A stretch of 34,119 nt of DNA from positions 1-34,119 of the forward strand of contig JARFNK010000038.1 of the NCBI GenBank assembly GCA_029167225.1. Direction: 5' to 3'. The notes under the pieces are model-generated. The model was not told where the DNA came from and did no database searches. It worked only from the letters and a program-made list of their open reading frames with translations. This DNA is from Sphingobium arseniciresistens (GTDB lineage Bacteria > Pseudomonadota > Alphaproteobacteria > Sphingomonadales > Sphingomonadaceae). Below, in pieces: positions 797 to 16,358 of this stretch. How positions within the stretch are numbered: the first letter of the stretch is position 1; every line of letters begins with the position of its first letter. The position numbers and the translations under genes are program-made.

Positions 797-1348
797 TCAG
801 GTGTGCCGATCCACAAGATCGCCCGGATAGTCGATATCGCGCAGTTCCCGCCGTGATGCCTCGACCATGACAGCATGGGCGAGAAGCGACCGCGCGCCCA
901 TTTCGCCCTTGAGGGCGTCGAGCGCATCGAACCAACTGCTGCCGAAAACGGCCGGCGGCATGCGACGGCCGCCGGTGCTGGAGGCGAGGATGGAATCGGG
1001 ACCGCTCAGGCCGTCGAGCAGGCAACGAAAATGGGCGATGGACACAAATGGCATGTCGGCGAGGCCGATAAGAACGGCGTCCATACCGGCTTTGCGCGCT
1101 GCGCCGACGCCCAGGCGGATGGAATGTGAGAGGCCTCTCTCCGGCTCCGGATTGCGGATCGCGAGAAACTCAGCCGGCCAGGCGAGGCCTGCGCCGCCGG
1201 TCACGACGATCCGGGCCTTGAGATCCAGGTTCATCAAGGTGCGGGCGGCATGATGGCCCAACGGAATGGCGTCCAGCATCGCCGCCAACTTGTCTGCCCC
1301 AAACCGGCTCGACAAGCCCGCCGCCAGGAGAACCGCCGCGACCTTCAT
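797..1348 (-). CDS. MocA-like molybdenum cofactor nucleotidyltransferase
   Basis: A 183-residue NTP-transferase-like protein. The N-terminal signature LAAGLSSRFGADK (residues 8-20) is the nucleotide-binding loop of the MobA/MocA group, and LADMP (96-100) is the second conserved motif, with the metal-binding Asp. Enzymes of this type attach CMP (MocA) or GMP (MobA) to molybdopterin. The MocA form serves xanthine-dehydrogenase-family hydroxylases, which fits the Mo hydroxylase encoded upstream on the same strand (12133-14316). It is the last gene of the catabolic run, about 110 bp beyond the cytochrome gene. Its length is typical of short MocA-like proteins. CMP specificity is inferred from context. 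Confidence 0.85.
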   Translation of the reverse strand: MKVAAVLLAAGLSSRFGADKLAAMLDAIPLGHHAARTLMNLDLKARIVVTGGAGLAWPAEFLAIRNPEPERGLSHSIRLGVGAARKAGMDAVLIGLADMPFVSIAHFRCLLDGLSGPDSILASSTGGRRMPPAVFGSSWFDALDALKGEMGARSLLAHAVMVEASRRELRDIDYPGDLVDRHT

Positions 1349-1457: not shown

Positions 1458-1835
1458 TCATTTCGCGTGCAACCCCTTCAACCAGGCGATCAACGCTGCG
1501 CGCCTGGCAGGATCGGGCACGCTGATCGTCATGCGCGTTCCCGGGACTTTTCTGATCGGTGCGGCGAGAAAGGCGTCCAGCGTCCTGTCGTCCCAGCGCA
1601 GCTTCGACGCCTTGAGTGCGGAGGAATAATTGAACCCGGGCGCGGTTCCGGCCAGACGGCCGTACACGCCATTAAGGTTCGGGCCGACACCGCTGGGCAC
1701 GCCCTTCTGCACCGTGTGGCAGGCCATGCACTGGTTGGCGGCGGGCGGCACTGCAGGAGATGCCGCCAACGGGGTCAGGGCCGACAAGGCGAGGACGAGG
1801 GGAACCAGGGCGGCAATCATGGGAGCGGGTTTCAT
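1458..1835 (-). CDS. Periplasmic class I cytochrome c
   Basis: A 125-residue small cytochrome c. Residues 1-25 are a hydrophobic Sec signal peptide ending near an ALA/AAS-type cleavage site. The haem site is CMACH (Cys36, Cys39, His40), and Met102 in PGTRM is the likely sixth ligand. GPNLNGVYGR (51-60) is the conserved segment after the haem motif in this family. AAGGACG lies just upstream of the ATG as ribosome binding site. A cytochrome c next to a FAD-less two-subunit Mo hydroxylase is a familiar arrangement, and this one most likely accepts electrons from the enzyme encoded at 11619-14316. That pairing is inferred, since the two loci are about 10 kb apart in the same cluster. Confidence 0.87.
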   Translation of the reverse strand: MKPAPMIAALVPLVLALSALTPLAASPAVPPAANQCMACHTVQKGVPSGVGPNLNGVYGRLAGTAPGFNYSSALKASKLRWDDRTLDAFLAAPIRKVPGTRMTISVPDPARRAALIAWLKGLHAK

Positions 1836-1959: not shown

Positions 1960-2985
1960 CTATTGTCGCGCCAGCATATCGAGCGCCACATCCACGATCA
2001 TGTCTTCCTGACCACCGACCATTTTGCGGCGCCCGAGTTCAACGAGGATCGAGCGGGTATCGATGCCATATTCGTCGCTCGCTTTCTCGGCGTGGCGCAG
2101 GAACGAACTGTAGACACCGGCATAGCCCAGGGTGAGGGTTTCCCGATCCACCTGGACCGGGCGGTCCTGCAACGGACGGACCAGTTCCTCCGCTGCGTCC
2201 ATCAGCGCGAACAGATCGCAGCCATGGGTCCAGCCCATGCGGTCGGCGGCCGCAATAAAGACCTCGAGCGGCGCATTACCGGCGCCGGCGCCCATTCCGG
2301 CGAGGCTGGCATCGACCCGGACAGCGCCACCCTGCACGGCGACGATGCTGTTCGCCACCCCCAGGCTCAGATTGTGGTGAGCATGCACTCCGCGCTGGGT
2401 TTCGGGCTTCAGGACCCGGTCATAGGCGGCAAGCCGCGCGGCATATTGGTCCATGGTCATGGCGCCGCCGGAATCGGTGACATAGACGCAGTGCGCGCCA
2501 TAATCCTCCATGAGCTTCGCCTGGCTGGCAAGCGCGTCGGGCGCGCTCATATGGCTCATCATCAGGAAACCCGAGACGTCCATGCCGAGATCGCGCGCAG
2601 CCTCGATATGCTGCTTCGAAACGTCCGCTTCGGTACAATGCGTCGCCACGCGCACGGACCGCACGCCCATCGCATAAGCGCGCTTCAGATCATGCACCGT
2701 GCCGATGCCGGGTAAGAGCAGCGTGGTCAGCACGGCTTTCTCAAGCACCTCCGCCACTGCGCTGATCCAGTCCCAGTCGGTGTGCGCGCCGAAGCCATAG
2801 TTGAAGCTGGAGCCGGACAGGCCGTCACCATGCGCAACCTCGATCGCATCCACCCCCGCGGCGTCGAGCGCCTTTGCGATCGAACGGACATGCTCGATCC
2901 CATATTGATGACGGATGGCATGCATGCCGTCGCGCAGGGTGACGTCCTGAATGTAGAGCCTTCCGGCTGCCGGATCGATGGTCAT
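1960..2985 (-). CDS. dmpG: 4-hydroxy-2-oxovalerate aldolase
   Basis: A 341-residue DmpG/BphI/MhpE-family aldolase that splits 4-hydroxy-2-oxopentanoate into pyruvate and acetaldehyde, with a divalent metal ion. The N-terminal [12 protein letters not shown] (residues 16-27) carries the conserved Arg, Asp and catalytic His. [11 protein letters not shown] near residue 200 carries the two metal-binding His, and the [13 protein letters not shown] loop is also typical. Length is normal for the family. Its ATG overlaps the stop of the acetaldehyde dehydrogenase gene by 4 bp (ATGA), so the two are probably translationally coupled. In this family the two proteins form a complex that channels acetaldehyde. 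Last step of the lower meta-cleavage pathway. Confidence 0.95.
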
Positions 2986-3938
2986 GCAGCGGTCCTTTCA
3001 TGCATGCGCAGCGCGATCTTCTCGGCGGTCCTGAGCGCCGCCGAGGTCATGATGTCGAGATTGCCGGCATAAGCGGGGAGGTAGTGTGCCGCGCCTTCCA
3101 CCTCGAGGAACACGGAAACCTTGAGGCCGGTAAGGTCGCCGTCCATTTCGGGTATCCGCAACGGGCGGTTCTGGCCGATCCGCTCGAACTGCACTGCCTG
3201 CTTGAGACGATAGCCGGGGACATAGGCCTGCACCTGGGCCACCATGTCCTCGACCGACCGGCGGATCGCATCCTGGTCGGCCTCTTCGCACAGGCAATAG
3301 ACCGTGTCCCGCATGATGAGCGGTGGCTCTGCCGGGTTCAGGATGATGATCGCCTTGCCGCGTCCAGCACCGCCCACGGCGACGATCGCCTGCGATGTCG
3401 TTTCGGTGAACTCATCGATATTGGCGCGCGTCCCCGGCCCCGCGCTCTTGCTGGAAATCGAGGCGACAATCTCACCATAATATACCTTTGCCACCCGATT
3501 CACCGCGGCGACGATCGGGATCGTCGCCTGCCCGCCGCAGGTGACCATATTGACGTTGGGGGCGTCGAGACAGGCATCCCCGTTCACCGGCGGGACGACA
3601 TAGGGTCCGATCGCAGCGGGCGTGAGATCGACCATCCGCTTGCCGGCGGCAAGCACCAGCTCGCTGTTGCGCTTGTGCGCACCCGCACTGGTCGCGTCGA
3701 AGACAATGTCGATATCCTCGAACTGCGGCATCGCGATCAGGCCGTCAATTCCCTCATGGGTCGTCGGGACGCCTAGTCGCTGCGCGCGCGCCAGGCCGTC
3801 GGATTGGGGATCGATTCCCACCATCGCGCCCATTTCGAGGACGTTGGACAAACGCATCACCTTGATCATCAGATCGGTGCCGATATTGCCTGAGCCGATG
3901 ATCGCGACCCTGGCCTTGCGTACAACTGCTTCGCCCAT
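2982..3938 (-). CDS. dmpF: Acetaldehyde dehydrogenase, acetylating
   Basis: Converts acetaldehyde, NAD+ and CoA to acetyl-CoA (DmpF/MhpF/BphJ family). Seen: N-terminal Rossmann motif [16 protein letters not shown], the nucleophile Cys in [16 protein letters not shown], and the [14 protein letters not shown] segment typical of the family. The open frame runs up to 3998, but the ATG at 3938 (MGEAVV...) is chosen: it gives 318 residues, places the Rossmann motif at the usual position, and lies one base past the stop of the hydratase gene. The gene overlaps the aldolase start by 4 bp. It works physically with the aldolase in this pathway. Confidence 0.95.
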
Positions 3939-3939
3939 G

Positions 3940-4725
3940 TCAGACCCCCGTGAAAGAAAAAGAACAGGCGCCGACCCCGGCGATATCGGCACGAACATGA
4001 GCGCCGGCCTTCAGCGCGGCCATCGGCCCGAGCGCGCCCGCGAGCAGGATATCGCCGGCTTTCAGCGGTTCGCCGCGCCGGGCCAGCGTTCGGGCCAGCC
4101 AGGCGGCGGCGTTCAGCGGATTGCCGAGCGCTGCAGCGCCCACGCCGGTCGAAACCACGTTGCCGTCGATGCGCATCTCCATTGCCGCTCCTTCCAGGTC
4201 GATCCCGGCCAGCGGCAGGCCCTGATCGGCCAGCACGAAGAAGGCCGAGGAACCGTTGTCGGCCACGGTGTCAGCGAAAGAAATCTTCCAGTCGGCGATC
4301 CGGCTGTCGACGATCTCGATCGCGGCGTGGACGCTGGCGACCGCGGCAGCGACCTCGTCCGGCGTCGTATCCTTCGAGGGCAGGTCCGCTCCCAGCACGA
4401 AGGCGATCTCCGCCTCGGCCTTCGCCTGGATGCAGCGCGCCGGATCGAGCAGACCGCCGTCGGTCACCTGCATGTCGGCGAACAGCACACCGAAATCGGG
4501 CTGGTCGACGCCCAGCTGTTGCTGCACCGCCGCGGCGGTCAGCCCTGCCTTGCGGCCGATGATCCGGCGGCCCTGGCTTTCCCAGAACCGGGTGTTGATT
4601 GCCTGAACGGCATAGGCGCCCGCCGCATCGACGGGTTCCAGACAGTCGCGCAGCGGCGGCACGGCGCCGGTGGCATAGGCATCGCGCAAGCGTTGCGCGG
4701 CACGCTCATGAAGGGGGTTGGTCAT
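3940..4725 (-). CDS. dmpE: 2-hydroxypenta-2,4-dienoate hydratase
   Basis: A 261-residue protein of the DmpE/MhpD/BphH family, which adds water to 2-hydroxypenta-2,4-dienoate to give 4-hydroxy-2-oxovalerate. [11 protein letters not shown] and [11 protein letters not shown] carry the three acidic metal ligands expected in this fold, and the C-terminal [12 protein letters not shown] region is also typical. The frame is open upstream to 5418, but that part is a shadow of the M20 gene. The ATG at 4725 (MTNPLHERA) gives exactly the family length and lies 8 bp after the M20 stop. Its stop is 1 bp from the acetaldehyde dehydrogenase start. It acts between the C-C hydrolase and the aldolase. Confidence 0.95.
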
Positions 4726-4733
4726 TGTATCTT

Positions 4734-6062
4734 TCACGATCCCAGTCCCAGCGCATCGCGCTTGCGGGTGAGTGTATCGATGCTGCACAGCAGGATCTTG
4801 CGGATGCACGGGAGCAGGTCGGGGACATAGGTGGCGCCCATCCCGCCCAGCCCTTCGGAAACCGGCTCGGGCGAGTTCTGGGCCGGCCACGGCCAGCCGA
4901 TCCGGGCGGTGGGAATTCCAAGCCGGCGCAGCGCAGCGCCGTCGGTCTGCCCGCCCAGCGGATCGGGGACGCCATGAGGCCGCCCCTCGACATGCTCCCA
5001 GCTGCGCAGCGCGGACTGGACGATCCAGTTGTCGGGATCGGTCGTGCCGCCGGGAACCGAGCCATACATTTCCCAGTCGGCGTCGATGTCGGGATGGCGC
5101 GCGCGGAAGTCTGCCATGAACTGCGCGAACTGCGCCTTGACCTCGGCGGGGCTGGTGCGCGGGTTGATCCTGATGTCGAACCACAATTCGGTGACCGCGC
5201 TGGGGAAAGCGGGCCGCTCGGGCCACCCGGCGCGAACGCCCGATATCCAGCCGTGCGGATAGACATTCCCCGAGCGGTTGCGCTCGGCATAGGCGATGAT
5301 CCACTGCTCGAGTTCGGGGATCATCACGGCTGCGGGCAGGATCGAACTGCGGAACTCGGGAACGCCGCGCGGGATGCCCGCATAGCCGAGTGTTCCCTTG
5401 AGCCGGACCTTGAACCACCCCATGCCCGGCTCTTCGTTATAGACCCAGTTCCAGGGCTTCATGATGAGCGCGAAATCGGCGGCCATGCCACGATGGAACA
5501 GATGCTGAAGCCCACTGCTCATCCCTGCCTGATTGCGCTCGGGGATGGTCGTGGGCATGCCCCCGTCGCACAGACCGACGACGAGGTCGCCGACGAGCGG
5601 CACGTCCGCCTCGATCAGCGCCGTCGCGACTTCGACCATGCTGGCGACCATCGCCTTGGGATTGGAGGATCCCAGGCCATAGACCCAGTCGCCGACCATA
5701 TGGGCCGATGGATGGAGGTCCACGAACCCCTTTTCGCCCGCCCAGGGATAGTCGCTCTCGTTCGCTTCCAGATGCGTGTCGATCGGCGAATAAAGCAGCA
5801 GGGCTGCCCCGCCGCCAGAACCTCGCCGCTCACCCAGCACATTGACGGACATGTCCGACATGCGGTCGATCCGGGTGCGCAGACCAATCCGCTCGAGATG
5901 GTCCGCGAGGAAATCGGCAACGGCGCGCGTGTCGCCTGTCGGCGAGTGGATGTCGGTGAGATCGAACAGCAATTGCTTCACCCGATCGGGATTGATCTTC
6001 GCGCTTGCGAGGGCGAACGCGTCGAGCTGAGCCCTTTCGATACCGTCTTCATTGGGTGCCAT
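4734..6062 (-). CDS. M20-family peptidase/deacylase-like protein with unusual active site
   Basis: A 442-residue protein with the overall M20 (ArgE/DapE/carboxypeptidase G2) layout. At each position where M20 enzymes carry a zinc ligand or the catalytic Glu, this protein differs. The HxD motif reads SPID (residues 92-95); the bridging Asp of the GxxxxDxK stretch is Asn134 (SSNPKA); the Glu-Glu pair is replaced by DGGM (166-169); the EP motif is KPW with Lys202; the dimer-domain His is Tyr227 (KGTLGYAG); and the last His falls at GGMGATYV. The reading frame is intact, with normal codon use and operon position, so this is not simple decay. It may hydrolyse by another mechanism or serve a non-catalytic role. 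It abuts the amidase gene with no gap, which suggests a joint job on an amide intermediate. Function inferred only. Confidence 0.75.
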   Translation of the reverse strand: MAPNEDGIERAQLDAFALASAKINPDRVKQLLFDLTDIHSPTGDTRAVADFLADHLERIGLRTRIDRMSDMSVNVLGERRGSGGGAALLLYSPIDTHLEANESDYPWAGEKGFVDLHPSAHMVGDWVYGLGSSNPKAMVASMVEVATALIEADVPLVGDLVVGLCDGGMPTTIPERNQAGMSSGLQHLFHRGMAADFALIMKPWNWVYNEEPGMGWFKVRLKGTLGYAGIPRGVPEFRSSILPAAVMIPELEQWIIAYAERNRSGNVYPHGWISGVRAGWPERPAFPSAVTELWFDIRINPRTSPAEVKAQFAQFMADFRARHPDIDADWEMYGSVPGGTTDPDNWIVQSALRSWEHVEGRPHGVPDPLGGQTDGAALRRLGIPTARIGWPWPAQNSPEPVSEGLGGMGATYVPDLLPCIRKILLCSIDTLTRKRDALGLGS

Positions 6063-7253
6063 TCAAACCTCCCTCAATGGGGCATGCGCCACGATTGCGG
6101 CCGCATTCGAAAGCAGCTGCCGGTCCTGGCCGCGAGGCCCAATCATCTGAAGACCCAGCGGCAGGCCATCCTGTGTCCACGCCCCCGGGAAGCCGAGGCA
6201 TGGTACGCCCAGCGCCGTCCATATCCGCTGGAAGGCGGGGTCTCCGGTCGATCCGAGACCGAGCGGAGCCACGCCCGGCGCGCCGGGCAACAAGAGCAGA
6301 TCGACCGATGCGAACAACGCGTGTGACCGTGCCACGCCGTCGCGCTGCGTCTGTAGCGCATCACGATAGGATGACTCGGATTCCGCCGCGCCGGCGTCGA
6401 TGAAGGCGCGAAACACGTCGCTGACGAGGTCGGGATGCCGACGTCGGATATCGCCAAGCGCCACCCAGGCCTCACGCCGATGGATGATTTTCTGTGCCTC
6501 GGTCAGCGCAGCGACCTCCTCATCCGGTTCGATATTCACGACGGCTATCCCGGCATCGCCCAGGCGCGCGGCGAAATCGAACAGCGCCTGCCGCATGTTT
6601 TCCTCGGCCACAGGCCAGGCCGGGGATTGGCACAGGCCGACGGTGAGAGAGGTCGCTGGCGGCGGGAGCGCGGTTTCTCCGGAAAGGACGGCATCGGCCG
6701 CGATCAGCGGATCGAGCGCTCGGGCGAACAGGCCTAGCGTGTCGAGGCTGGGTGCCGTCGGCAGCACGCCTTCGAGCGGATAGCGCCCGAAGCTGGGCTT
6801 GAAACCGAGCACGCCGCAATAGCTGGCAGGGCGGATGACCGACCCTGCCGTCTGCGTGCCGAGCGCCAGATCGGCCTGGCCGTCCGCCACCACCGCGGCC
6901 GAGCCGCTCGACGAGCCTCCGGGCGTGCGGGCCGGCGCGTGTGGATTGACCGTGGGCCCGGGCGAGTAGGCGGCGAATTCCGCCGTCACCGTCTTGCCGA
7001 GTATCGCCGCTCCGGCCGTGCGCAGCAGCGCGACGGCTTTCGCATCGTCTGTCGCGACATTATCCCGGAAAATCGGTGAACCATGTGTTGTCGGCATACC
7101 GGCGACATCGATCACATCCTTGACGCCGAGGGTGAGGCCATGGAGCGGACCGCCGCCGCAGGCGTCCTGCGGCGCGAGATGCGCCCAGCCTTGCACGACG
7201 GCATCGCGCGCTACGATATCCTGAAGCGATTTCGGAGACATGGACACGATCAC
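6063..7253 (-). CDS. Amidase, amidase-signature family
   Basis: A 396-residue Ser-cisSer-Lys hydrolase. The triad is visible: Lys45 in GLTLGVKDVID, cis-Ser114 in PGGSSSGSAAV, and nucleophile Ser138 in TQTAGSVIRPAS. The family hydrolyses carboxamides (or carbamates and ureides) to acid plus ammonia or amine. No signal peptide is seen, so it is probably cytoplasmic. The first possible start, GTG at 7253, overlaps the extradiol gene stop by 4 bp (GTGA). An ATG at 7241 is the alternative, and neither has a strong ribosome site. Its place inside a ring-cleavage operon suggests it opens a lactam or removes an amide from the pathway substrate. The true substrate is unknown. Confidence 0.88.
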   Translation of the reverse strand: MIVSMSPKSLQDIVARDAVVQGWAHLAPQDACGGGPLHGLTLGVKDVIDVAGMPTTHGSPIFRDNVATDDAKAVALLRTAGAAILGKTVTAEFAAYSPGPTVNPHAPARTPGGSSSGSAAVVADGQADLALGTQTAGSVIRPASYCGVLGFKPSFGRYPLEGVLPTAPSLDTLGLFARALDPLIAADAVLSGETALPPPATSLTVGLCQSPAWPVAEENMRQALFDFAARLGDAGIAVVNIEPDEEVAALTEAQKIIHRREAWVALGDIRRRHPDLVSDVFRAFIDAGAAESESSYRDALQTQRDGVARSHALFASVDLLLLPGAPGVAPLGLGSTGDPAFQRIWTALGVPCLGFPGAWTQDGLPLGLQMIGPRGQDRQLLSNAAAIVAHAPLREV

Positions 7254-8119
7254 CCGCCGCCCGGCCGATGGCCCCAGAGCATGGGCGCATCATAGATCTT
7301 CACGTCCCAGTTCTCGTCGATTTCCCTGCCGCCGGTGCCGAACTCCAGCCAGAAGCCCGATGGCGTCTCGATGTAGAAGCTCTGCATATGGTCGTTGGAA
7401 TGCTTGCCCGGCTCGAGCTTCACCGGGAACTGCCGGTCGCGGATGCGGTCATAGGCATATCCCACATCGTCGATCGAGTTAGTCTCCAGCATGATATGCA
7501 TCAGCGTGCCCGCCGGGCAGCCGGGAGACTCCGCGAGCAGGGCAAGCGAATGATGGCGGCGGTTGCAGTGCAGGAAGACCGCATCATTGCCATCCCAGGA
7601 GATATAGTCGGAAACCTCGAACCCCATCACCTCGCGATAGAAATCCAGCGCCGCCTTGATGTCCTCGACCCAGTAGACGATGTGCCCCAGGCCCATGTCG
7701 TCGGTCTTGAAGCCACTCATCCCGTAGCGGGGAGAAAAGGGCGTGTTGGAGACGAGCGGCCCGTAGAAGATCTCGCAGTTCGCCTTGAGATGGGGGTCGG
7801 TATAACTGTACAGCGCCTTTACCTTGCGCTCGGAGCACAAGGCGGCGCTGCCCGCTTCGGTCCGGATTCCAAGATCGGTCAGGCGTTTGGCGAGCGCATC
7901 CAGCGCCGTCAGGGACTTCACCTCCCAGCCCATCGCGCGCAGGCTGTCCGTTGGGGCAGCGTAGAGCGAGAGGCGATGATGATGGGCGTCCATCCGGAAA
8001 TCGAGTGCCTCTGAAGACTGCGGGACCAGCTCGAGGCCGAACACATCCTCGAGCAGCACGCGCCAGCGCTCCGGATTGCTGACGTTGAAGGCGAGATATC
8101 CCAGATTGCTGATGGCCAC
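7250..8119 (-). CDS. Type I extradiol ring-cleavage dioxygenase (BphC-like)
   Basis: A 289-residue, two-domain vicinal-oxygen-chelate dioxygenase of the 2,3-dihydroxybiphenyl 1,2-dioxygenase group, which cleaves a catechol next to the hydroxyls using Fe(II). The metal ligands fall where the BphC family has them: His146 (GLGHIVYW), His208 (LMHIML) and Glu259 (FWLEFG). His241 and Tyr250 of the active site are also present (GKHSNDH, SFYIET). The open frame reaches 8410, but the family N-terminus (AISNLGYLAFNV) begins at a GTG at 8119 with AGGGGA just upstream, 16 bp after the reductase stop. Carbazole clusters usually have the two-subunit LigAB-type CarB instead, so the substrate here is likely different. 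Confidence 0.92.
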   Translation of the reverse strand: MAISNLGYLAFNVSNPERWRVLLEDVFGLELVPQSSEALDFRMDAHHHRLSLYAAPTDSLRAMGWEVKSLTALDALAKRLTDLGIRTEAGSAALCSERKVKALYSYTDPHLKANCEIFYGPLVSNTPFSPRYGMSGFKTDDMGLGHIVYWVEDIKAALDFYREVMGFEVSDYISWDGNDAVFLHCNRRHHSLALLAESPGCPAGTLMHIMLETNSIDDVGYAYDRIRDRQFPVKLEPGKHSNDHMQSFYIETPSGFWLEFGTGGREIDENWDVKIYDAPMLWGHRPGGG

Positions 8120-8135
8120 GGACGGTCCCCTGTCT

Positions 8136-9164
8136 TCATTCGCTCGCGACGAACTGTTCGGCGTGAATATTTTCCGGACTGAGGCCGAGGCTCTCGAGGC
8201 GCGCGCGGGCGGCGTGGATGAGCCCAGCCGGGCCGCACAGATAGGCGACGCTGCCGGGGTCCATTTCACCCAGCGCCTGCACGGGATTGCCCTTGAGCAG
8301 GCCGTCGGCGGGCTGGCCATGTTCGACCGAAATCCTGGCGGTGAGGCCGGGCATCCACATTTGCCGCAATTCGATTTCCTCGCGGAAGAACAGCCCCCTC
8401 TCGCCGGCACAACCGAAGCTCAGCAGGATCGGGGGCTTGCGTCCCGACCGTTCGCGGATTGCATCAATCATCGCCATCATCGGCGCGAGACCGGTTCCGC
8501 CGGCCACCATGACATGCGGGCGCTGGTCCTTGTCGGCGAGGAAGAAGGACCCGAACGCTCCCTCGATCTCAAGGACGTCGTCGCGCCTGGCCGAGCCGGT
8601 CAGCCATTTCGACATCGCGCCATCGGGCAGGAGGCGGATCAGCAGCTCGATGCGGGGCAGGGCGGATGGCGGGCTGGCGATTGAATAGCTGCGTTTCAGA
8701 TCCGTGCCGGGCACCTGCACCTGGATGTATTGCCCCGGCCGGAAGGCGATTTCGTCACCTTCTGCCAGTTCCAGCACCAGCTTCACCGCGTCCTCCGCGA
8801 TCCGCTCCACCGCATCGACGAAGGCGGAAGCCTTGCGCGGCCCATTGCCGCCCGCCGTGCTGGGATAGCCCAGCGCAAAATCGCAATCGCCGCTGGCCAT
8901 GGTGCGGCAGAGCAGCCGTCGGCCCTCGGCAACCTCGGACTGGAGCAGGGCGCTGGAGGCGCCTGTCATCATCTCGGCCGAGCCTTTCATAAGATCGGCA
9001 ACGCATGTAGAGCAGGCCCCGCTCCGGCACTGGAAAAGAACCGGCGCTCCAGCCTCGATTGCGGCATGAAGCACGGTTACCCCGGATTGCACCGGAAACC
9101 GATATTCCCTGCCGTCGCTGAACGACAGCCGGACCGAGGAGGGGGCGTCGCAAGTCTCCGACAT
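8136..9164 (-). CDS. Oxygenase reductase: [2Fe-2S] ferredoxin, FAD and NAD(P)H domains
   Basis: A 342-residue electron-transfer protein for the Rieske oxygenase. The N-terminal domain is a plant-type ferredoxin with CRSGACSTC and a later LLC supplying the four Cys. The middle FAD domain has RPGQYIQV and RSYSIASPP. The C-terminal NAD(P)H domain has GGTGLAPMMAM, a GCAGERGLFF segment and a closing CGPAGLI...HAEQF motif. This domain order matches class IB reductases such as BenC and OxoR. It means the system needs no separate ferredoxin, unlike carbazole dioxygenase (CarAa/Ac/Ad). The ATG at 9164 (MSETCDAP) is chosen over the longer open frame because it starts just before the ferredoxin domain and lies 5 bp past the oxygenase stop. 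Confidence 0.93.
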   Translation of the reverse strand: MSETCDAPSSVRLSFSDGREYRFPVQSGVTVLHAAIEAGAPVLFQCRSGACSTCVADLMKGSAEMMTGASSALLQSEVAEGRRLLCRTMASGDCDFALGYPSTAGGNGPRKASAFVDAVERIAEDAVKLVLELAEGDEIAFRPGQYIQVQVPGTDLKRSYSIASPPSALPRIELLIRLLPDGAMSKWLTGSARRDDVLEIEGAFGSFFLADKDQRPHVMVAGGTGLAPMMAMIDAIRERSGRKPPILLSFGCAGERGLFFREEIELRQMWMPGLTARISVEHGQPADGLLKGNPVQALGEMDPGSVAYLCGPAGLIHAARARLESLGLSPENIHAEQFVASE

Positions 9165-9169
9165 GCGCG

Positions 9170-10504
9170 CTAATCCTTGATCTTCTCGACGAAATAGCCG
9201 GGCTTCTTGCCTTCCGCGAGCCGCCGCATGCGAATGCTCGACGTCTTGGTGGCGCCTTCGACGCCTCGTCCCGGCTTGGCGATGCCGCGATTGTAGCGCG
9301 ACGCGAGCTTTCGCCAGGTGATCGGCGAAATATCGGTGGCGACCAGCTGCTCCTCGTCCCAGCCCGTGCCGTCGGCATAGAATTCCTGCATCCCTTCGCG
9401 TGCGTAAAGGTCCGCATTGTTGAAGCCTTCGAGACAGAGCGGCTTGTACACATTGTCGAACCGATATTTGAACGTCGCGCGCTCGGCGTCGGTCTTGCAG
9501 ATTTTGACCAGAACTTCCCAATATTCATAGGTGTCGTCGGTAATCGGTACATACCATTCATACTGGCAGACATGTTCTTCGGGCCAGTTCTCGACCATCA
9601 GCACGCCCGGCAGCACGACCGATGTCCGATAGCCATGCCCGACAAGGCCCGGAATAGTGACGCCGAGTTCCTTGTTTTCGAGGATCGGTTCCCATTTGTC
9701 GGTGAACAGCCACTGCATCAGCCCCTTGGGGCCGTCCTCGTCCTCGATCGGAGAGATGCAGTCGTCGCTGACCGGCCGGATGCCCAGCGGAAGCACCCAG
9801 TTCTGGACGTGAAGGAAGGGCGAATCCTTGTGGACAAGGATATGCGCATTGTCGAAGCCGTTTTCGCACGCGACCCGCCAGTCGGCCTCGCCGGTGCGAT
9901 GGATGCCAAGGCACACCGCATCTTCGTCGAGAAGGCCTGGAGCCGCCGGCCAGAGTGGATGCGGGAAGCGCTCCGAACTCTCGGGAAAGCGCACCGGCAG
10001 GTCATGCGCCAGCGGCGGCACGTCCTCATCGGGGTAATCGTCCTCGCGCACGAACACGAAGATCATGCCGGCGACTTCCTGCACCGGATAGGTGGTCAGC
10101 CCGGTGGTGCCGATCAACGGATCGTCGGGGTTGCCCACGATCGTCGCGAGCTTGCCGTCATCCAGATTGAAGGTGAAGCCGTGATACCAGCACGTGATGG
10201 TCCGCTCGTTGAAACAGGTCGGCTTGGCGGAAAGCCGCACGCCGCGGTGAAGGCACCGGTCCTTGATCGCCTTGACCCCCGAAGGAGTGCGGCGCAGCAG
10301 GATCTGGATGCCGCAGATCTGCACGCCCTCTACCGCGTCTTCGGGCAATTCCTCGCTGAAGAGCGCGGGATACCAGTGATTGATGAACCCCCACGAGGCG
10401 TCCTTGTAGGGCTGATACTGGCTTTGCGTGCGCGCATCGTTCGTGCAGCGATCGCTGGTGACATTGAGACGAGAGGTGCGGCGCACCGGAACCTTTTCAG
10501 TCAT
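9170..10504 (-). CDS. Rieske non-haem iron oxygenase, large subunit (CarAa/OxoO-like)
   Basis: A 444-residue terminal oxygenase. The Rieske cluster ligands are Cys84 and His86 (CLHRG) and Cys105 and His108 (CWYHG). The catalytic iron ligands are probably His221, His225 (NGFDNAHILVHKDS) and an Asp near 365 (LEGFNNADLYARE). From memory, these segments and WYVPI, LPGVL and the C-terminal WRKLASRYN closely follow carbazole 1,9a-dioxygenase CarAa. The group also contains 2-oxoquinoline 8-monooxygenase, and its members form alpha-3 trimers without beta subunits; no beta gene is present here. The ATG at 10504 has AAGGAG 8 bp upstream. It probably hydroxylates or dihydroxylates an aromatic ring adjoining a heteroatom. 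Substrate unproven. Confidence 0.93.
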   Translation of the reverse strand: MTEKVPVRRTSRLNVTSDRCTNDARTQSQYQPYKDASWGFINHWYPALFSEELPEDAVEGVQICGIQILLRRTPSGVKAIKDRCLHRGVRLSAKPTCFNERTITCWYHGFTFNLDDGKLATIVGNPDDPLIGTTGLTTYPVQEVAGMIFVFVREDDYPDEDVPPLAHDLPVRFPESSERFPHPLWPAAPGLLDEDAVCLGIHRTGEADWRVACENGFDNAHILVHKDSPFLHVQNWVLPLGIRPVSDDCISPIEDEDGPKGLMQWLFTDKWEPILENKELGVTIPGLVGHGYRTSVVLPGVLMVENWPEEHVCQYEWYVPITDDTYEYWEVLVKICKTDAERATFKYRFDNVYKPLCLEGFNNADLYAREGMQEFYADGTGWDEEQLVATDISPITWRKLASRYNRGIAKPGRGVEGATKTSSIRMRRLAEGKKPGYFVEKIKD

Positions 10505-10529
10505 CTTCCACTCCTTCCCGGATGCGTGC

Positions 10530-11411
10530 TCATGCGCGCATGAAAGCGCCGACGACGTCGTCATGCTCTTCGGGCCGTTCCCATTGCGGCCAGTGCGCGC
10601 AGCCCTTCATGATATGCTTGGTGGCGCCAGGGATGATTGCTTCCAGCCGGTCGGCAGCGTCAGGCCCGTGGATCGGGTTCTTGTCGGTCCACAGCACCAG
10701 CGTCGGGCAGGCGATCTTCCGGATATCCGGTTCGCGCCAATAGAATTCGCCGATGTTCGGCGCGAACAGGAGGTTGTAATATTCTACCAGCGCCTTCTGC
10801 GTCGCAGGGATGGTCCACAGCGCCCGGCGCAGCTCGACCAGTTCGTCGGTCACGCCGCCCAGCGGCATCAGCCATTCGAGGCGCTTCCTGAGCAGTTCGG
10901 GCGTCGGATTGAGCAGCGCGTTGAGCGACGTCGCCCGGAGCGAATCCAGGTCGCTTTCACCCTGATGCACATAGGCCGGATCGAGCTCCATGCCCCAGGA
11001 GGTGTTGAGGATGACCTTCGAGGTACGGTCGGGATGGTTGATCGCCATGTCGAACGCGATCCAGCCGCCGAGCGATTCTCCCTCAACGGCCGCTTTCTCG
11101 ATCCCCATATGATCCATCAGGTTCAGAAGCTGGTCGGTGAACTGCGACAGCCAGTGATTAGGCGCGCTGGAGGGCGCGTCGGAAAAAGGCGGGCAGGAGG
11201 ACATGCCATGCCAGATGAAATCGATTGCATAAGGCTGGCACGACTGGGCGAGCCGATTGAGATTACGCGAATAGGTTTCGGCGTGGCCGCCGCCGCCATG
11301 GAGCAGAAAGAGCGGTTCGCCCGTCCCGGGGGCCGAAATGCAGCGCGTTCGATATTTGCCCGTGTCGATGAAGCGCGTCTCGGTGCCCAGCAGATCGATA
11401 TGAATGGTCAT
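10530..11411 (-). CDS. Meta-cleavage product (C-C bond) hydrolase, alpha/beta fold
   Basis: A 293-residue alpha/beta hydrolase of the BphD/CarC/MhpC type, which hydrolyses the vinylogous 1,5-diketone made by extradiol cleavage, releasing 2-hydroxypenta-2,4-dienoate and a carboxylic acid. The oxyanion segment HGGGG is at 38-42, the nucleophile Ser113 is in GESLGG, the Asp is in VLWTDKNPIHGPD, and the His is in GCAHWPQWERPEEH. The ATG at 11411 follows GGAGGG at ideal distance; the 18-codon upstream extension is not needed. First gene after the promoter at 11492-11519 and 25 bp ahead of the oxygenase gene, so it probably leads the main operon. Confidence 0.92.
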   Translation of the reverse strand: MTIHIDLLGTETRFIDTGKYRTRCISAPGTGEPLFLLHGGGGHAETYSRNLNRLAQSCQPYAIDFIWHGMSSCPPFSDAPSSAPNHWLSQFTDQLLNLMDHMGIEKAAVEGESLGGWIAFDMAINHPDRTSKVILNTSWGMELDPAYVHQGESDLDSLRATSLNALLNPTPELLRKRLEWLMPLGGVTDELVELRRALWTIPATQKALVEYYNLLFAPNIGEFYWREPDIRKIACPTLVLWTDKNPIHGPDAADRLEAIIPGATKHIMKGCAHWPQWERPEEHDDVVGAFMRA

Positions 11412-11618: not shown

Positions 11619-12083
11619 TTATCCCTTGCCGCTGAGGGTGCCCGAGGCTGACCGGATCGCCGCCCTGATCCGGTCGTAGGTCCCGCAGCGGCAAATATTT
11701 CCTGCCATCCCGGCATCGATCGCCGCCTCGTCGGGCTGTCTGCTGTCCCGCAGCAACGCTATCGCGCTCATCAGTTGCCCTGCCTGACAATAGCCGCATT
11801 GCGGAACGTCGAGATCGATCCAGGCGGCCCGCAAGGCATCCGCCTCGGGACCGGCAACGCCCTCGATCGTGGTGATTTCGCCCGACACGTCGGCGACAGC
11901 CATCGAGCAGGACCGAATGGGCGCGTTGTCGAGATGAACGGTGCAGCAGCCACACAACCCCATCCCGCAGCCGAACTTCGGCCCCTTGATGCCAAGCCCA
12001 TCCCGCAGCGCCCAGAGGAGCGGCGTATCGGCAGGCACGTCCACTTCGTGAACAATGCCGTTGACCTTCAGCTTGTAGGTCAT
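11619..12083 (-). CDS. Mo hydroxylase small subunit, two [2Fe-2S] clusters (IorA-like)
   Basis: A 154-residue iron-sulfur subunit of the xanthine-oxidase family. The first cluster uses Cys39, Cys44, Cys47 and Cys59 (GCGMGLCGCC); the second uses Cys96, Cys99, Cys131 and Cys133 (QCGYCQAGQ and ICRCG). It passes electrons from the molybdenum site to an external acceptor. There is no signal peptide of its own; in this family it is thought to ride out of the cytoplasm on the Tat-exported large subunit. The ATG at 12083 (MTYKLKVNG) is chosen over the longer open frame. It lies 49 bp after the large-subunit gene and is the 3' member of that pair. Absence of a FAD subunit gene matches isoquinoline 1-oxidoreductase-type enzymes. 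Confidence 0.92.
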   Translation of the reverse strand: MTYKLKVNGIVHEVDVPADTPLLWALRDGLGIKGPKFGCGMGLCGCCTVHLDNAPIRSCSMAVADVSGEITTIEGVAGPEADALRAAWIDLDVPQCGYCQAGQLMSAIALLRDSRQPDEAAIDAGMAGNICRCGTYDRIRAAIRSASGTLSGKG

Positions 12084-12132: not shown

Positions 12133-14316
12133 TCATACGTCCAGTCCTTCGGCGTTGATCGGAAGTGACCGGATCCGCCGCCCGGACGCTGCAAAAATCG
12201 CGTTGCAGACCGCCGCGGCAATGTGGGGCACGCCGGCCTCGCCCACGCCTCCGGGATCCGCGTCGCTCTCGATGAACTCGACCTGTACCTCAGGCGCCTG
12301 AGGCATCCGCAAGAGCGTATAGGTATCGAAGTTCGTCTGCTGCGGCCGCCCGCCATCGAAGGTGATCGCGCCGCACAACGCTGCCGAGAGGCCGAACAAT
12401 ATGCCGCCCTGGATCTGGCCCGCCGCACCGAGTGGGTTGACGACGCGCCCGCAATCGACAGCGCAATAGACCCGCTTCACCTCGAGCGTGTTGCCGCTGA
12501 CGGCAACCTCGGCGACCTGCGACAGCTTGGTGCCCCAATAATCCTGGATCGCGACCCCCCGGCCATGGCCAGCGGGCAATGGCCGCGTCCAGTCCGCCAT
12601 CTTCGCCACATGATCGAGCGTCTTGAGCAGGCGCGCGCTGTCGGGCACTCCCGCGAGCAGCTTGCGGCGATATTCGACGGGATCCTGTCCTGCCCGATGC
12701 GCGAGTTCATCGAGGAAGCACTCGACTGAAAGGCAGGTGTTGACGTTGCCGACCGAACGCATCCACTGAACCGTCGGCCCCTGATCGGTGGTGTGAAGTT
12801 CGACTCGCAACCCCGGAATGCGATAGGGCAGGTCACGCGCACCGGCGACCGAGGTGGTGTCGATCCCCTTTTCAATGAGGAAAGCGAACTCGTTTCCCTT
12901 GGCCGGCGACTGCGCCACGATCCGGTGCAGCCAGCTCGACGGCAGGCCGTCGTCGCCCAGCGTCGCTTCAAGCCGGTCATAGGCCATGGGGCGATAGAAG
13001 CCGCCCTGTATATCATCTTCGCGCGGCCACATATTCTTGATCGGACGGCCCGCGATATCGCCACCATGCTCTCGGGCCGCCTTCACGATCTCGGCCGTTT
13101 CGACCACCATGTCCTCGGTGGGGCTGGCGCGCCGTCCGAAACCTCCGCCCATATAAAGGGTGTGGATCCTCACCGTCGGTTCAGCATAGCCGAGAATGCG
13201 CGCGACCTCCTTGCGATCGAGGCTTTGATACTGCGTGCCGACCCAGACATCGCACCCATCCGACGATGCCTGGATCGTGCAATTGAGAGGTTCCATGGGA
13301 GCATGGGCAAGATAGGGTACGGAATATTCCGCCGTAACAAGATCGGAGCCCTGTTCGATCTTTCCCTTCTCGACGGCGAGGAGCCCCGGCGTCTGCGCCA
13401 GGCGCCGATATTCCTCCAACAATTGCGCGGAGGTGAATTTGCTCCCTTCGGGCTCATCCCATTGAACCTGAAGAAGCTTGCGCCCGGACAAAGCCGCCCA
13501 GAAGCTGCTGGCGATCACCGCCACGCCATTGGGCAGCCTGACCACCCCCAGCACGCCAGGCGCCTTCGACGCCTGGCCAGCATCGTAGCTGCGCAATGTC
13601 GCGTAGCGGCTGGGCGCGCGCGCAACGGTCGCCACCAGCATGTCGGGAAGTGCGAAGTCCACGCCATAGGGCAGCTTGCCGTGCACGACGGCGGGGGTCT
13701 CGCGCTTGCGCACCGGAGTGCCGATCAGCGTGAAATCCTTCGCCCCCTTGAGGACGATCTCCTTCTTCGCCGGCGGCCGCAGTTTCGTAGCGTCGGCCAC
13801 AAGTGCGCCGAAGCTCGCCTTCTTCCCGCCAGGCCCCTCGACACCGCCGTTACGCGCCGAGCATGCGCTGACCGGCACTTTCCATCGGGTGGCCGCGGCG
13901 TGGATCAACATCATCCGCGCCGCTGCCGCGGCTTCCCTTGTCGTCTGGTAGAACGCCGCCGTGCTCGTGCTCGCCGCCGTCGCCTGGAGGCCACCGAAAA
14001 TCGGGTTGCCGAATGCAGGATCGACCGGCGCCGCTTCCACGTTGATGGCGTCCCACCGAGCGCCCAGTTCGTCCGCCAGCACCATCGCCAGCGACGTGAA
14101 AATGCCCTGGCCCATTTCCGTGGCGCCGATGATAGCGGTCACGCGATCATCCTTGCCGATGCGCAGATAGGCGTTCGGGGCAAAATCGTCACTGCCCGGC
14201 TGCGGCTCGCCGGCATGGGGCCCGCCAAAGTGGCGAAAACCGATCCAGAGGGCGACACCTCCGGCCGCCCCGGCACCGAGAAGGGCACGCCGGCTGATCT
14301 TGGCAGGCTCCGTCAT
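12133..14316 (-). CDS. Mo hydroxylase large (molybdopterin) subunit, Tat-exported (IorB-like)
   Basis: A 727-residue molybdopterin-binding subunit of the FAD-less xanthine-oxidase branch (isoquinoline 1-oxidoreductase / periplasmic aldehyde oxidase type). The N-terminus carries a twin-arginine signal (SRRALLGAGAAGG, residues 9-21). GGGFGRR (around 390) is a cofactor-binding motif, and GVGEAGVP holds the catalytic Glu near residue 693. It would add a water-derived hydroxyl to a carbon beside a ring nitrogen, or oxidise an aldehyde, in the periplasm. GAGGGA precedes the ATG. Electrons would pass through the small subunit to a c-type cytochrome such as the one at 1458-1835. The exact substrate cannot be told from sequence. 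Confidence 0.92.
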   Translation of the reverse strand: MTEPAKISRRALLGAGAAGGVALWIGFRHFGGPHAGEPQPGSDDFAPNAYLRIGKDDRVTAIIGATEMGQGIFTSLAMVLADELGARWDAINVEAAPVDPAFGNPIFGGLQATAASTSTAAFYQTTREAAAAARMMLIHAAATRWKVPVSACSARNGGVEGPGGKKASFGALVADATKLRPPAKKEIVLKGAKDFTLIGTPVRKRETPAVVHGKLPYGVDFALPDMLVATVARAPSRYATLRSYDAGQASKAPGVLGVVRLPNGVAVIASSFWAALSGRKLLQVQWDEPEGSKFTSAQLLEEYRRLAQTPGLLAVEKGKIEQGSDLVTAEYSVPYLAHAPMEPLNCTIQASSDGCDVWVGTQYQSLDRKEVARILGYAEPTVRIHTLYMGGGFGRRASPTEDMVVETAEIVKAAREHGGDIAGRPIKNMWPREDDIQGGFYRPMAYDRLEATLGDDGLPSSWLHRIVAQSPAKGNEFAFLIEKGIDTTSVAGARDLPYRIPGLRVELHTTDQGPTVQWMRSVGNVNTCLSVECFLDELAHRAGQDPVEYRRKLLAGVPDSARLLKTLDHVAKMADWTRPLPAGHGRGVAIQDYWGTKLSQVAEVAVSGNTLEVKRVYCAVDCGRVVNPLGAAGQIQGGILFGLSAALCGAITFDGGRPQQTNFDTYTLLRMPQAPEVQVEFIESDADPGGVGEAGVPHIAAAVCNAIFAASGRRIRSLPINAEGLDV

Positions 14317-14484: not shown

Positions 14485-16358
14485 TCATTTGAACTTCGCC
14501 GCGAGCGTGATGCCGTAAGTCGCCGGCTGCCCAGCAAAGCGGCTGATCGTGTCGTAATCGGTGAAGATATTGGTCACATAATATCTGTTGAAGATGTTCT
14601 TGCCAAAAACCGTCACAGTATATTTTCCATCGTCGAACGACGCGCCTATACGCGCATCGACGGTTGAATATCCATCGATCGTGTAGGTGTGCGAAGGATC
14701 GACGGACGACGCGAAATCGGGCGTGAGAACGAGGGCTCTGGATCCTCCGATATTGGCCAGCGCCTTGCTGCGTGCCGAAAACACAATCCCAACGAAGGGC
14801 GAGACGCTTCCCATCTTCCAGCTGTAATCCGCCCCGATCCTGACCTGATATTTGGGCGTATAAGGAATGACCGAGCCGGCATAGTCTGTCTCGACGCCGG
14901 CTGTGTTCGGACCCGAAAATTTGGTTATCTTGCTGTCGAGAAAACTGCCGGAAGCCGAAATCGAGAAGCCCGTGAAAGGCGTAAGCGTGGCGTCCATCTC
15001 CAAGCCGAACATCCGGGACTTGGGCACGTTTGTCAGCGCATCCAGGATGCCGAAGATGGGATCCACGATCTTCCCACGCAACTGCTTGTTTTCATAGTCA
15101 TAGTAGAAGGCTGCGCCGGTCACCTGCAGAACCCGGTCCAGGGTATGGAACTTGAAGCCCGTCTCGAACGACAGGAGGGATTCCTGTTTGACGGGTAGGA
15201 ACTGCTGGAACGTCGCCGCCGACGCGATCGGGAAGCTGCCCGCTTTATATCCTCGGGCCGCATTCACATACAGCAACAGGTTGCTGGTCGGCTTATAGTC
15301 GATGCCGGCCCGCCAGGATATATTATGCTCCTTGAGAAGGCCGTGATATTCGCCCGGAAGATAGGTCGCCGGCGTTCCGTCGAGTGTCGTGTTGTCAAAT
15401 GGAGCGCAACCCGTGCCAATCGGAGGCACCGTAACTCCCGTCGGCGTGAATCCAGCTACAGGATAGGCACCTGACTGGATGGAATTGATTAAATAGTCGA
15501 AGGCGCTCGAAAAGGATCCGTCGCCGGGATCTCCGGTGCAGGTCGAGGCCGAGCGGCGGGCGTTCGTATAACGCACGCCGCCCTTCACGGTGAATTGGCT
15601 GCTCAGATCATATTCGAGATTACCGAAAAACGCGTAATTGCGCATATGCTGGTCGGAATAATTATCGGAGCCGGTGTAGCCGTAAAGCGGAACGGTGCTC
15701 AGCGTGCCGAACTTTTCGAGTTCATATTGATAGACATGGCTCTTTTCATAATTGGCGCCAACCACCCAGCGAAGCGGCGATCCGCCGTCATCGGCCAGTC
15801 GCAGCTCCTGGTTGAAGGATTTTATGTAGCCGCGATCGACGATGAAATCGTCCAGCGACAGGGATGTCCCATCGCTTTCCAGGCCCTGGTTGGTTCGATA
15901 GTCGACATAGGACGTGATCGACGTCAAGGTGATGCCGTCTGCCACCTTCCAGTTTGCGCGTAACGCTCCCTGGTAGAATTTGTGATCGCCGTGCGGCCGC
16001 GTCGATGGCGTCCAGTCAGCGGCCCGCGCGTTGAAGGGCGCGAACGGATAGGCGACCAGCGCCGGATCGGTTCCGGGCGAATATTGCGACAGCAACGTCT
16101 GATATTGCGGCGCCTGCGGGTCGCTCTGGTCACGCCACGCGTTGAAGGTGAGTTCGAAGTCGAGCCGGCTGCTGGGCGTCCAGTCGACGATGGCGCGACC
16201 GCCATAATAGCCCAGTTTGCCCAGCGTGTCCGCACGGGTATAGCTCTTCTGCCAATCGTCCGCTCGCGCGCCCGTAAAGGCGATCCGGGCCTTGATCGTA
16301 TCGGACAGCGGGCCGCTCACATAAAGATTGCCCTCCAGGTCATTGAAGCGCCCATAAG
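14485..16358 (-). pseudogene. TonB-dependent receptor, 5'-truncated by transposon
   Basis: About 620 native residues of an outer-membrane TonB-dependent receptor: the segment SGPLSDTIKARIAFTGA just after the plug domain, then the beta-barrel, ending in a family-typical aromatic-rich strand (PATYGITLAAKFK). The signal peptide, TonB box and plug domain are missing. Native sequence stops at the transposon end (16359). The open frame continues into the transposon to an ATG at 16569, giving a 694-codon chimeric frame whose first 70 or so residues come from the terminal repeat. Such a product would lack export and TonB coupling and is unlikely to work. The intact receptor probably imported the substrate of the neighbouring pathway, as is common in sphingomonads. 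Confidence 0.85.

Follow-up and report, generated by a model that had tools for sequence, protein, structure and literature searches.

A probable operon for degrading quinoline-like pollutants, on probable plasmid DNA of Sphingobium arseniciresistens, with a conserved M20-fold protein

The contig JARFNK010000038.1 of Sphingobium arseniciresistens (assembly GCA_029167225.1), analysed over positions 1 to 34,119 and called the window below, probably carries a plasmid-borne operon for degrading quinoline-like pollutants. Nine open reading frames (ORFs) run along the minus strand from 11411 to 1960 in the order hydrolase, oxygenase, reductase, extradiol dioxygenase, amidase, M20-fold protein, hydratase, dehydrogenase and aldolase. 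All are open, and the successive gaps are 25, 5, 16, −4, 0, 8, 16 and −4 nucleotides (nt). Because no gap falls outside −4 to 25 nt, the nine genes are likely read as one transcript, as an earlier note on this DNA had proposed. The extent that it gave to the operon holds for these nine genes but not for the upstream end, since a two-subunit molybdenum (Mo) hydroxylase and the remnant of a TonB-dependent receptor precede them on the same strand. Scans returned 3 promoter-like sequences against 2.1 in shuffled sequence, and 4 terminator-like sequences against 5.8, nothing beyond chance. Pfam and NCBIfam back the family assignment of every member of the run except the M20-like protein. The gene order is more than chance, because a diverged copy in the same order lies on another contig of the genome (C66) and many other genomes have portions of it.

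The Rieske oxygenase (9170..10504) is of the 2-oxoquinoline 8-monooxygenase type, here called OxoO. Among solved structures it scores 789.6 bits with 1z01, 2-oxo-1,2-dihydroquinoline 8-monooxygenase, with 314 of 438 aligned residues identical (72%), and 292.7 bits with the best CarAa. It matches the Pfam families Rieske and Aromatic_hydrox and the homotrimeric ring-hydroxylase family PF11723, and has the Rieske and mononuclear-iron motifs (CLH...CWYH at 84, HILVH at 221, NNAD at 362). By sequence it is clearly of the OxoO (2-quinolone) type and not an intermediate between CarAa and OxoO; of the carbazole/2-oxoquinoline branch to which the earlier note had assigned it, the 2-oxoquinoline part stands and the carbazole part falls. 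Since the oxygenase is so close to the solved OxoO, far above CarAa, a pathway of the quinoline (2-quinolone) class is well supported, with 8-hydroxy-2-quinolone as the predicted product of OxoO. A carbazole-type reading was ruled out by the identity of the oxygenase together with the pCAR1 and pCAR3 carbazole stretches, in which neither the M20-fold protein nor the amidase found a match. The adjoining reductase, OxoR (8136..9164), has a built-in plant-type ferredoxin followed by FAD and NAD domains (Fer2, FAD_binding_6, NAD_binding_1), as had been read from the letters; its scores with MmoC (235 bits) and BenC (208 bits) are both under cut-off.

The alpha/beta hydrolase (10530..11411; Abhydrolase_1) is a proposed meta-cleavage product (MCP) hydrolase. 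Its nearest solved structures are MCP hydrolases, at 64 bits, the GxSxG, WTDK and CAHWP motifs are present, and its start, MTIHIDLLGT, is also found in the C66 copy. The extradiol dioxygenase (7250..8119) has BphC_D1 and Glyoxalase domains and keeps the His/His/Glu motifs, in agreement with the note's BphC-type rather than CarB-type assignment, though its 279.8 bits with the 2,3-dihydroxybiphenyl 1,2-dioxygenase family TIGR03213 lie below the cut-off of 366.45; with 1han it gives 189 bits, both queries lacking the first 7 residues. The 2-hydroxypenta-2,4-dienoate hydratase-like protein of the MhpD type (3955..4725; FAA_hydrolase), queried with 4 extra codons in front, reaches 291.6 bits with PRK11342, below the cut-off of 350. 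As both score below curated cut-offs, the extradiol enzyme and the hydratase are named at superfamily level only. The acylating acetaldehyde dehydrogenase of the MhpF type (2982..3938; AcetDehyd-dimer) and the 4-hydroxy-2-oxovalerate aldolase of the MhpE type (1960..2985; DmpG_comm) pass theirs, with 478.8 bits against 282.25 for TIGR03215 and 577.9 bits against 286 for TIGR03217. The amidase-signature hydrolase (6063..7253) matches PF01425 at 229 bits, has the GVKD, GGSSSGS and TAGSV motifs, and finds its best solved match in malonamidase E2 (1ock), with 227 bits over residues 15–384.

The M20-fold protein (4734..6062), the candidate for carbon–nitrogen cleavage, gave no Pfam match at E 0.001, and its relative in a genome of the same genus (G058) scores 20.1 bits with PF01546, whose cut-off is 24.6. 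The nearest solved relative is 5-nitroanthranilate aminohydrolase (5k8p), at 76 bits with the single sequence and 106 bits with a profile built from 33 sequences, the window protein included. An AlphaFold2 model was of only moderate confidence (mean pLDDT 79.0, pTM 0.74). With this model, Foldseek ranks 1–12 were all 5-nitroanthranilate aminohydrolase (E 1.7e-28 to 3.2e-27), and other M20 proteins followed from 5.7e-21. The aminohydrolase matches had TM-scores of 0.55–0.62, 21–22% identity and root-mean-square deviations of about 12.4–13.0 Å, perhaps so large because the domains meet at a different angle in the model. Over the 33 aligned sequences D95 is conserved in all 33, N134, K202 and D374 are likewise invariant, and the motifs DT, SNPK, GGMP, KPW and QTDG are invariant.

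The company kept by these genes was examined by scanning one genome per species, which gave 131 stretches encoding OxoO relatives; the best 80 of the 131 (L018–L097) were tallied within flanks of up to 10 kb, at identities of at least 45% for OxoR, 40% for M20 and 28% for the amidase. OxoR lies near OxoO in 72 of the 80 loci, an amidase match in 69 and M20 in 68. The amidase and M20 genes are thus regular companions of OxoO and OxoR and not the unusual insertions that the note had taken them for. M20 is the better conserved in sequence, forming one group at mostly 62–72% identity, while the amidases are diverse (at least 50% in 16 of 80, most others 28–44%). Of the 12 loci without M20 nearby, 10 carry it elsewhere in the genome at 63–72% identity; the two that lack it, L018 and L023, come from metagenome assemblies in which the OxoO contigs measure just 5.5 and 3.1 kb. 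In 51 of the 68 loci M20 comes after OxoR within 400 nt, on its strand, and in the remaining 17 it stands further along that strand (1.1–2.3 kb in 16, 8.7 kb in L026), separated from OxoR by the extradiol gene and generally also by the amidase. Window-type loci, defined by an amidase at least 50% or a hydrolase at least 70% identical to that of the window, make up 19 of the 80, so the gene set is not unique; the note had known of no described pathway with it. Eighteen of them have an extradiol gene (at least 40%), 16 have M20 and 16 an amidase of at least 50%; L045 has the window-type order with an amidase at 49.9%, and so counts outside the type. M20 is present for each of the 11 loci listed nearest to the Pseudomonas putida 86 OxoO (86–90%, Pseudomonas and Stutzerimonas), close to OxoO in 8 and at another place in the genome in 3. 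DUF1302, DUF1329, resistance-nodulation-division (RND) and Ycf48-like genes accompany Pseudomonas OxoO clusters in varying sets (L059, L067, L081 and similar), perhaps for transport of a hydrophobic substrate. The neighbourhoods do not show the amidase and the M20-fold protein acting outside the pathway, an outcome that the note had raised, and a search of the accessible literature found no substrate assignment for an identical cluster.

In an order-level sample of 396 genomes, where at most 4 candidates were scored per genome and misses are possible, 6 genomes have OxoO at 67% or more, and M20 occurs in every one of the 6; M20 at this same level of identity was found in 7. One further genome (G072) gave weak matches only to either protein. 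Five genomes of this sample with a CarAa-like oxygenase (39–45%; in G328, 39% and 48% in two pieces) gave no M20 match at 1e-20. The sole M20 genome without OxoO, G393, has a locus (L104) with a styrene-type monooxygenase, a TonB gene, an extradiol gene whose alignment does not start before residue 72, an amidase and M20, with no match to OxoO or OxoR; it appears to be the same cluster after a deletion. Among the 80 tallied loci, a styrene/indole-type monooxygenase (at least 45%) was seen in 10, 2 window-type and 8 others (L032, L038, L042, L045, L046, L054, L075, L085, L090 and L096); 7 of the 10 have a flavin-reductase match and 4 also a match to the Asp/Glu/hydantoin-racemase family. This hints that oxindoles from indole or skatole might feed the same OxoO core. 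In its accessible text, a paper on skatole monooxygenases does not use the terms Rieske, amidase, oxindole or M20 (PMC11434297). A paper on auxin (PMC12633357) and one on oxy-PAHs (PMC9836352) proved to have no bearing here. That the window itself serves an indole-type substrate was judged unlikely, no styrene-type monooxygenase having been seen in it. Two other genomes of the same genus (G009, G036) have a compact cluster (L102:8153-13357 and L103:5211-10409) of a Rieske oxygenase 29–30% identical to OxoO, an M20-like protein of a second clade (36%), a LigB-type extradiol enzyme and two hydrolase-family genes.

In a quinoline degrader, 8-hydroxycoumarin and 2,3-dihydroxyphenylpropionate were proposed as intermediates, with release of ammonium; the replacement of the ring nitrogen by oxygen appears there as a single conversion, for which the accessible part of the report names no enzyme (PMC9029321). 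A literature search, which covers few subscription journals, found no named gene for the C–N cleavage step. In genomes G058 and G008 of the same genus, OxoO, OxoR and M20 stand after genes for the quinoline 2-oxidoreductase subunits QorMSL, a CoxG-like and an XdhC-like protein, with an oppositely oriented helix-turn-helix regulator between. The G058 large subunit scores 1057.8 bits over 783 residues with quinoline 2-oxidoreductase (1t3q). Compared with G058, the three subunits encoded by each of the two G008 copies (L013, L015) show 85–89% identity (large subunit 89%), and those of L053 67–80%. These relatives have a LigB-type extradiol enzyme where the window has the BphC type. An alcohol dehydrogenase (ADH) of the medium-chain dehydrogenase/reductase family with a cupin gene within 1.5 kb occurs in 41 of the 61 loci outside the window type (41 of 41 pairs) and in 0 of the 19 window-type loci. 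Neither ADH (at least 45%) nor cupin found a match in those 19 loci or among the window ORFs tested with Pfam, a search that did not extend to an old yellow enzyme such as XenA. XenA reduces 8-hydroxycoumarin in the P. putida 86 quinoline pathway, by the accessible part of that source (PMC5519977). From the corresponding part of another, the zinc ADH HcdE of P. mandelii reduces the double bond of hydroxycoumarin and leaves quinolin-2-one untouched; the cupin HcdF, encoded in the same operon, is proposed to hydrolyse the lactone (PMC7913881). If the ADH/cupin pair acts like HcdE and HcdF, the ring nitrogen would already be gone before the reductase acts. As the window-type loci have no such reductase, the side chain should stay unsaturated there and give a maleamate-type acid.

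The copy on C66 bears on the same acid. It reads TonB, iorB, iorA, hydrolase, oxoO, oxoR, extradiol, amidase, M20, hydratase, dehydrogenase and aldolase, at 58–92% protein and 73–80% DNA identity to the window. Upstream on the same strand, with one unassigned ORF before the TonB gene, lie genes for a family III CoA-transferase, an HMG-CoA-lyase-like protein and LeuC- and LeuD-like proteins; a pyruvate carboxylase gene lies downstream (the two parts at L009:2602-6810 and L010:11219-14665). The lyase-like protein (276.8 bits, cut-off 246), LeuC (753, cut-off 510) and LeuD (256, cut-off 167) all score above cut-off. This set could take citraconate to pyruvate and acetyl-CoA, and so fits citraconate and hence a methylquinoline substrate, a fit that is suggestive only. 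Because the amidase is malonamidase E2-like and this citraconate-type set adjoins the C66 copy, the acid half is suggested to be (methyl)maleamate. The earlier note had foreseen a nitrogen-containing aromatic with an amide or lactam in its acid half; that the aromatic becomes a lactam and that the acid half holds an amide are both probable, the lactam probably being made by the upstream Mo hydroxylase.

The best joint explanation, to which we give an even chance, is a plasmid-borne operon for quinoline or a ring-methylated quinoline in which the M20-fold protein breaks the C–N bond. The IorAB-like Mo hydroxylase would oxidise the carbon next to the nitrogen to give the 2-quinolone lactam, and OxoO with OxoR, assigned by homology, would oxygenate C8, or C8 and C8a. 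The M20-fold protein would then break the C8a–N bond of the OxoO product and leave a catechol bearing a (Z)-acrylamide side chain, which corresponds to 8-hydroxycoumarin in its ring-opened state. Judged by enzyme family, the BphC-type enzyme would cleave the catechol ring, the hydrolase would yield 2-hydroxypenta-2,4-dienoate and (methyl)maleamate, the amidase would release ammonia and leave maleate or citraconate, and the hydratase, aldolase and acetaldehyde dehydrogenase would complete the C5 half. Two routes can be drawn for the C–N step. In one (route a), the product of OxoO is the 8-hydroxylactam, whose C8a–N bond the M20-fold protein would hydrolyse by way of a keto-imine tautomer. In the other (route b), OxoO makes the angular 8,8a-diol, an N-acyl hemiaminal that would open poorly alone, and the M20-fold protein would expel the amide; without it the diol would dehydrate to the 8-hydroxy product that the enzyme is known to yield in isolation. 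Carbazole clusters form an ordinary hemiaminal; route b would account for their lack of M20, as well as for the amidase that nearly always follows.

Several results weigh against this pathway. The motifs of the M20 metal site, read here with the roles that we take its His and Glu to have, are replaced: in place of HxD, the bridging Asp, Glu-Glu and the terminal His stand PID, SNPK, DGGMP and GGMGATY. Across the 33 sequences P93, N134 and G167/G168 occupy the positions read as the His, the bridging Asp and the catalytic Glu of M20 enzymes, and in the window protein A285 aligns with R289 of the aminohydrolase, a residue recognised from the title of an R289A structure and from its difference between two aligned chains. 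With the His, bridging Asp, Glu and R289 positions all changed, a metal-hydroxide mechanism is unlikely; a role as a metallopeptidase was ruled out by the changed metal site. The aminohydrolase itself has Asn at the bridging position. Three sequences of the distant M20 clade show the same changes, with His in L105 where the near clade has Tyr412, at the position of the last M20 ligand; the invariance of H97 is confined to the near clade. The protein may resemble the aminohydrolase in outcome, yet cannot be classed with it. The amidase is as constant as M20 (69 against 68 of 80), so linkage by itself singles out neither as the one that frees the nitrogen, and the results as a whole leave free the order of amidase action and ring cleavage. 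At the entry step, the window has no QorMSL, its Mo large subunit giving just 63.5 bits with 1t3q, and IorAB-like large subunits lie near only 2 of the 80 loci (L049, L088). The citraconate-type set adjoins the C66 copy and not that of the window; its CoA-transferase scores far below cut-off both as a succinate–glutarate enzyme (243.1 bits) and as succinyl-CoA:mesaconate CoA-transferase (219.5 bits); the genome has three further LeuC copies at 61–63%; and no complete set was found in the examined flanks of other loci, four of which have a CoA-transferase match only. The window copy, for its part, is interrupted at the TonB gene and further upstream.

Genome G008 adds to this side. Its two QorMSL–OxoO–OxoR–M20 clusters (L013–L016) lie about 1.6 Mb apart on one contig, and the window amidase, queried at 1e-10, found no match in either (about 15 kb upstream and 12–13 kb downstream). 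Other amidase queries found in both, where it would be expected, a 47-residue amidase C-terminus (residues 418–464 of the G058 amidase, 72%), at L014:8821-8961 and L016:8222-8362, between cupin and short-chain dehydrogenase/reductase genes; beyond these, the two large downstream ORFs encode the conjugation proteins TrbI and CagX. As the remnants show loss, G008 is no proof that M20 alone frees nitrogen. The loss is secondary, and either the amidase is dispensable there or the clusters are decaying. Were it dispensable, dihydroxycinnamamide could lactonise with loss of ammonia.

The changed metal-ligand positions in both M20 clades also favour the idea that the M20-fold protein is a pseudoenzyme, a non-catalytic helper that stabilises, for example, OxoOR or the lactam. 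Nitrogen would then leave by angular dioxygenation and spontaneous opening, and the amidase would hydrolyse the (dihydroxyphenyl)acrylamide before ring cleavage. OxoO matches PF11723, a family that includes CarAa; CarAa performs an angular reaction; and the amidase recurs in 69 of 80 loci, which suits this alternative too. Invariant motifs over 33 sequences would be unusual for a mere scaffold, however, and the CarAa clusters examined gave no M20 match. We regard it as rather unlikely.

The usual work of the M20 and amidase-signature folds is to cleave amides, and the cyclic-dimer amide hydrolase 3a2p is among the matches of the amidase (63 bits). One of the two proteins could therefore be a lactamase acting on the N1–C2 amide of a hydroxylated quinolone, the extradiol enzyme then cleaving an ortho-aminophenol ring. 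This seems quite improbable, since the extradiol enzyme is BphC-type, the ADH–cupin pair of other loci points to coumarins, and the 8-hydroxycoumarin route with ammonium release, as far as the accessible text sets it out, needs C8a–O and not C8a–N (PMC9029321). On paper, all enzyme classes of the window, including the BphC-type extradiol enzyme that sets it apart from the QorMSL relatives, would also fit phenanthridine or phenanthridinone. The IorAB-like enzyme would oxidise C6, the oxygenase would attack the angular position C4/C4a, the BphC-type enzyme would cleave 2'-carbamoyl-2,3-dihydroxybiphenyl, and the hydrolase and then the amidase would lead to phthalamate and phthalate. The closeness of OxoO to the quinolone enzyme, the small-acid-amide enzyme nearest to the amidase and the citraconate-type set of the C66 sister copy all speak against that substrate, and of the explanations weighed here it is the least probable.

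The core oxoO–oxoR–M20, mostly with the amidase, is joined elsewhere to QorMSL, IorAB-like or styrene/indole-type entry genes and to varied lower modules. As a wider proposal on C–N cleavage by the M20-fold protein we put forward, tentatively and as somewhat doubtful, that a metal-free M20 fold has been recruited for aromatic C–N cleavage, turning the lactam product of OxoO, hydroxylated or angularly dioxygenated and thus a hydroxyanilide or an N-acyl hemiaminal, into a catechol-amide and supplying the step of the coumarin route, and with other entry modules acting on indole-type oxindoles; the distant clade (36%) with its 29–30% Rieske oxygenase would be a parallel system. If so, one conserved gene would close the gap at the C–N step in many proteobacteria, a metal-independent reaction would be added to a large hydrolase fold, and a marker gene would be at hand for bacteria that degrade azaarenes and possibly indole-type compounds. 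With entry modules exchanged around it, this core would account for the use of a single chemistry on several N-heterocyclic pollutants.

The genes on either side of the nine, all on the minus strand, add some detail. The Mo hydroxylase consists of an IorA-like [2Fe-2S] subunit (11619..12083; Fer2 and Fer2_2, cysteine motifs) and an IorB-like large subunit (12133..14316; MoCoBD_1 and MoCoBD_2), whose best solved match is the aldehyde dehydrogenase large subunit 8gy3 at 246 bits; the names IorA and IorB, and the biology that goes with them, are used as we presume them to apply. Because a twin-arginine-like motif (SRR at residue 8, also in the C66 copy) starts the large subunit, the enzyme is probably exported. 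A small c-type cytochrome (1458..1835; Cytochrom_C 26 bits; CMACH as its CxxCH motif) might be its electron acceptor, and a MobA-like nucleotidyltransferase (797..1348; NTP_transf_3 95.6 bits) possibly makes the form of Mo cofactor that it uses; neither gene had a match beside the C66 copy (stretch L010). The TonB receptor remnant (14485..16384; TonB_dep_Rec_b-barrel, no Plug match) lacks about the first 188 residues of the 812-residue C66 receptor, which has a Plug domain; tblastn aligned residues 189–811 only, at 16359–14491.

An inverted repeat at 16385 and 21965 bounds a transposon-like segment with a resolvase (17877–18473), an integrase-core protein (18415–20118) and an ATPase (20118–21095). 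One end of the segment truncates the TonB gene; at the other, an ORF for a Cys/Met pyridoxal phosphate enzyme (21925–23076) terminates within the repeat, so that two different genes flank it. A MarR-type regulator on the C66 side (L009:1743-2420), with relatives at 36–45% in many OxoO loci, has no match in the window, from which it was possibly lost with the transposon insertion. Further on lies a plasmid backbone (26125–34054) with ParA, a SopB/ParB-type protein, an RPA replication initiator, a Toprim/DUF7146 protein and a large AAA_34 protein that also matches a methyltransferase weakly; given the ParA, ParB-type and RPA replication genes, the contig is probably plasmid DNA. The C66 contig also carries conjugation genes.

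Among known systems, the carbazole clusters (CarAa, pCAR1, pCAR3) share the oxygenase superfamily, CarAa being 39–41% identical to the window OxoO, and have similar meta-cleavage and lower-pathway logic; they have a separate ferredoxin and a two-subunit ring-cleavage enzyme, and the window has neither. The hcd cluster of P. mandelii 7HK4, for 7-hydroxycoumarin, pairs a zinc ADH with a cupin in its operon; 41 of the 61 non-window OxoO loci have such a pair, a likeness at the level of gene families, and an extradiol enzyme and a hydrolase are shared as well; its accessible description mentions no Rieske oxygenase or M20 protein (PMC7913881), and the ADH/cupin pair is absent from window-type loci. 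Malonamidase E2, a small-acid amidase by name, is the nearest solved relative of the window amidase. The 5-nitroanthranilate aminohydrolase of Bradyrhizobium (5k8m–5k8p) is the closest match of the M20-fold protein in sequence and fold, though its site His, Glu and R289 are not retained (P93, G167 and A285 align there). It removes an aromatic amino group hydrolytically in aromatic catabolism, a hydroxyl taking its place (PMC10306065, in the part seen), and is counted, in the available part of another paper, among enzymes thought to use nucleophilic aromatic substitution (SNAr)-type routes via metal-hydroxide intermediates or aryl-ester hydrolysis (PMC11903332). Also close is the quinoline pathway of P. 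putida 86. The window shares with it OxoO (72%), the reductase with built-in ferredoxin and the 2-quinolone lactam logic. It differs in its IorAB-like two-subunit hydroxylase in place of QorMSL, its BphC-type extradiol enzyme and its lack of the ADH/cupin pair. The pathway class is thus already known, and the window is a variant of it.

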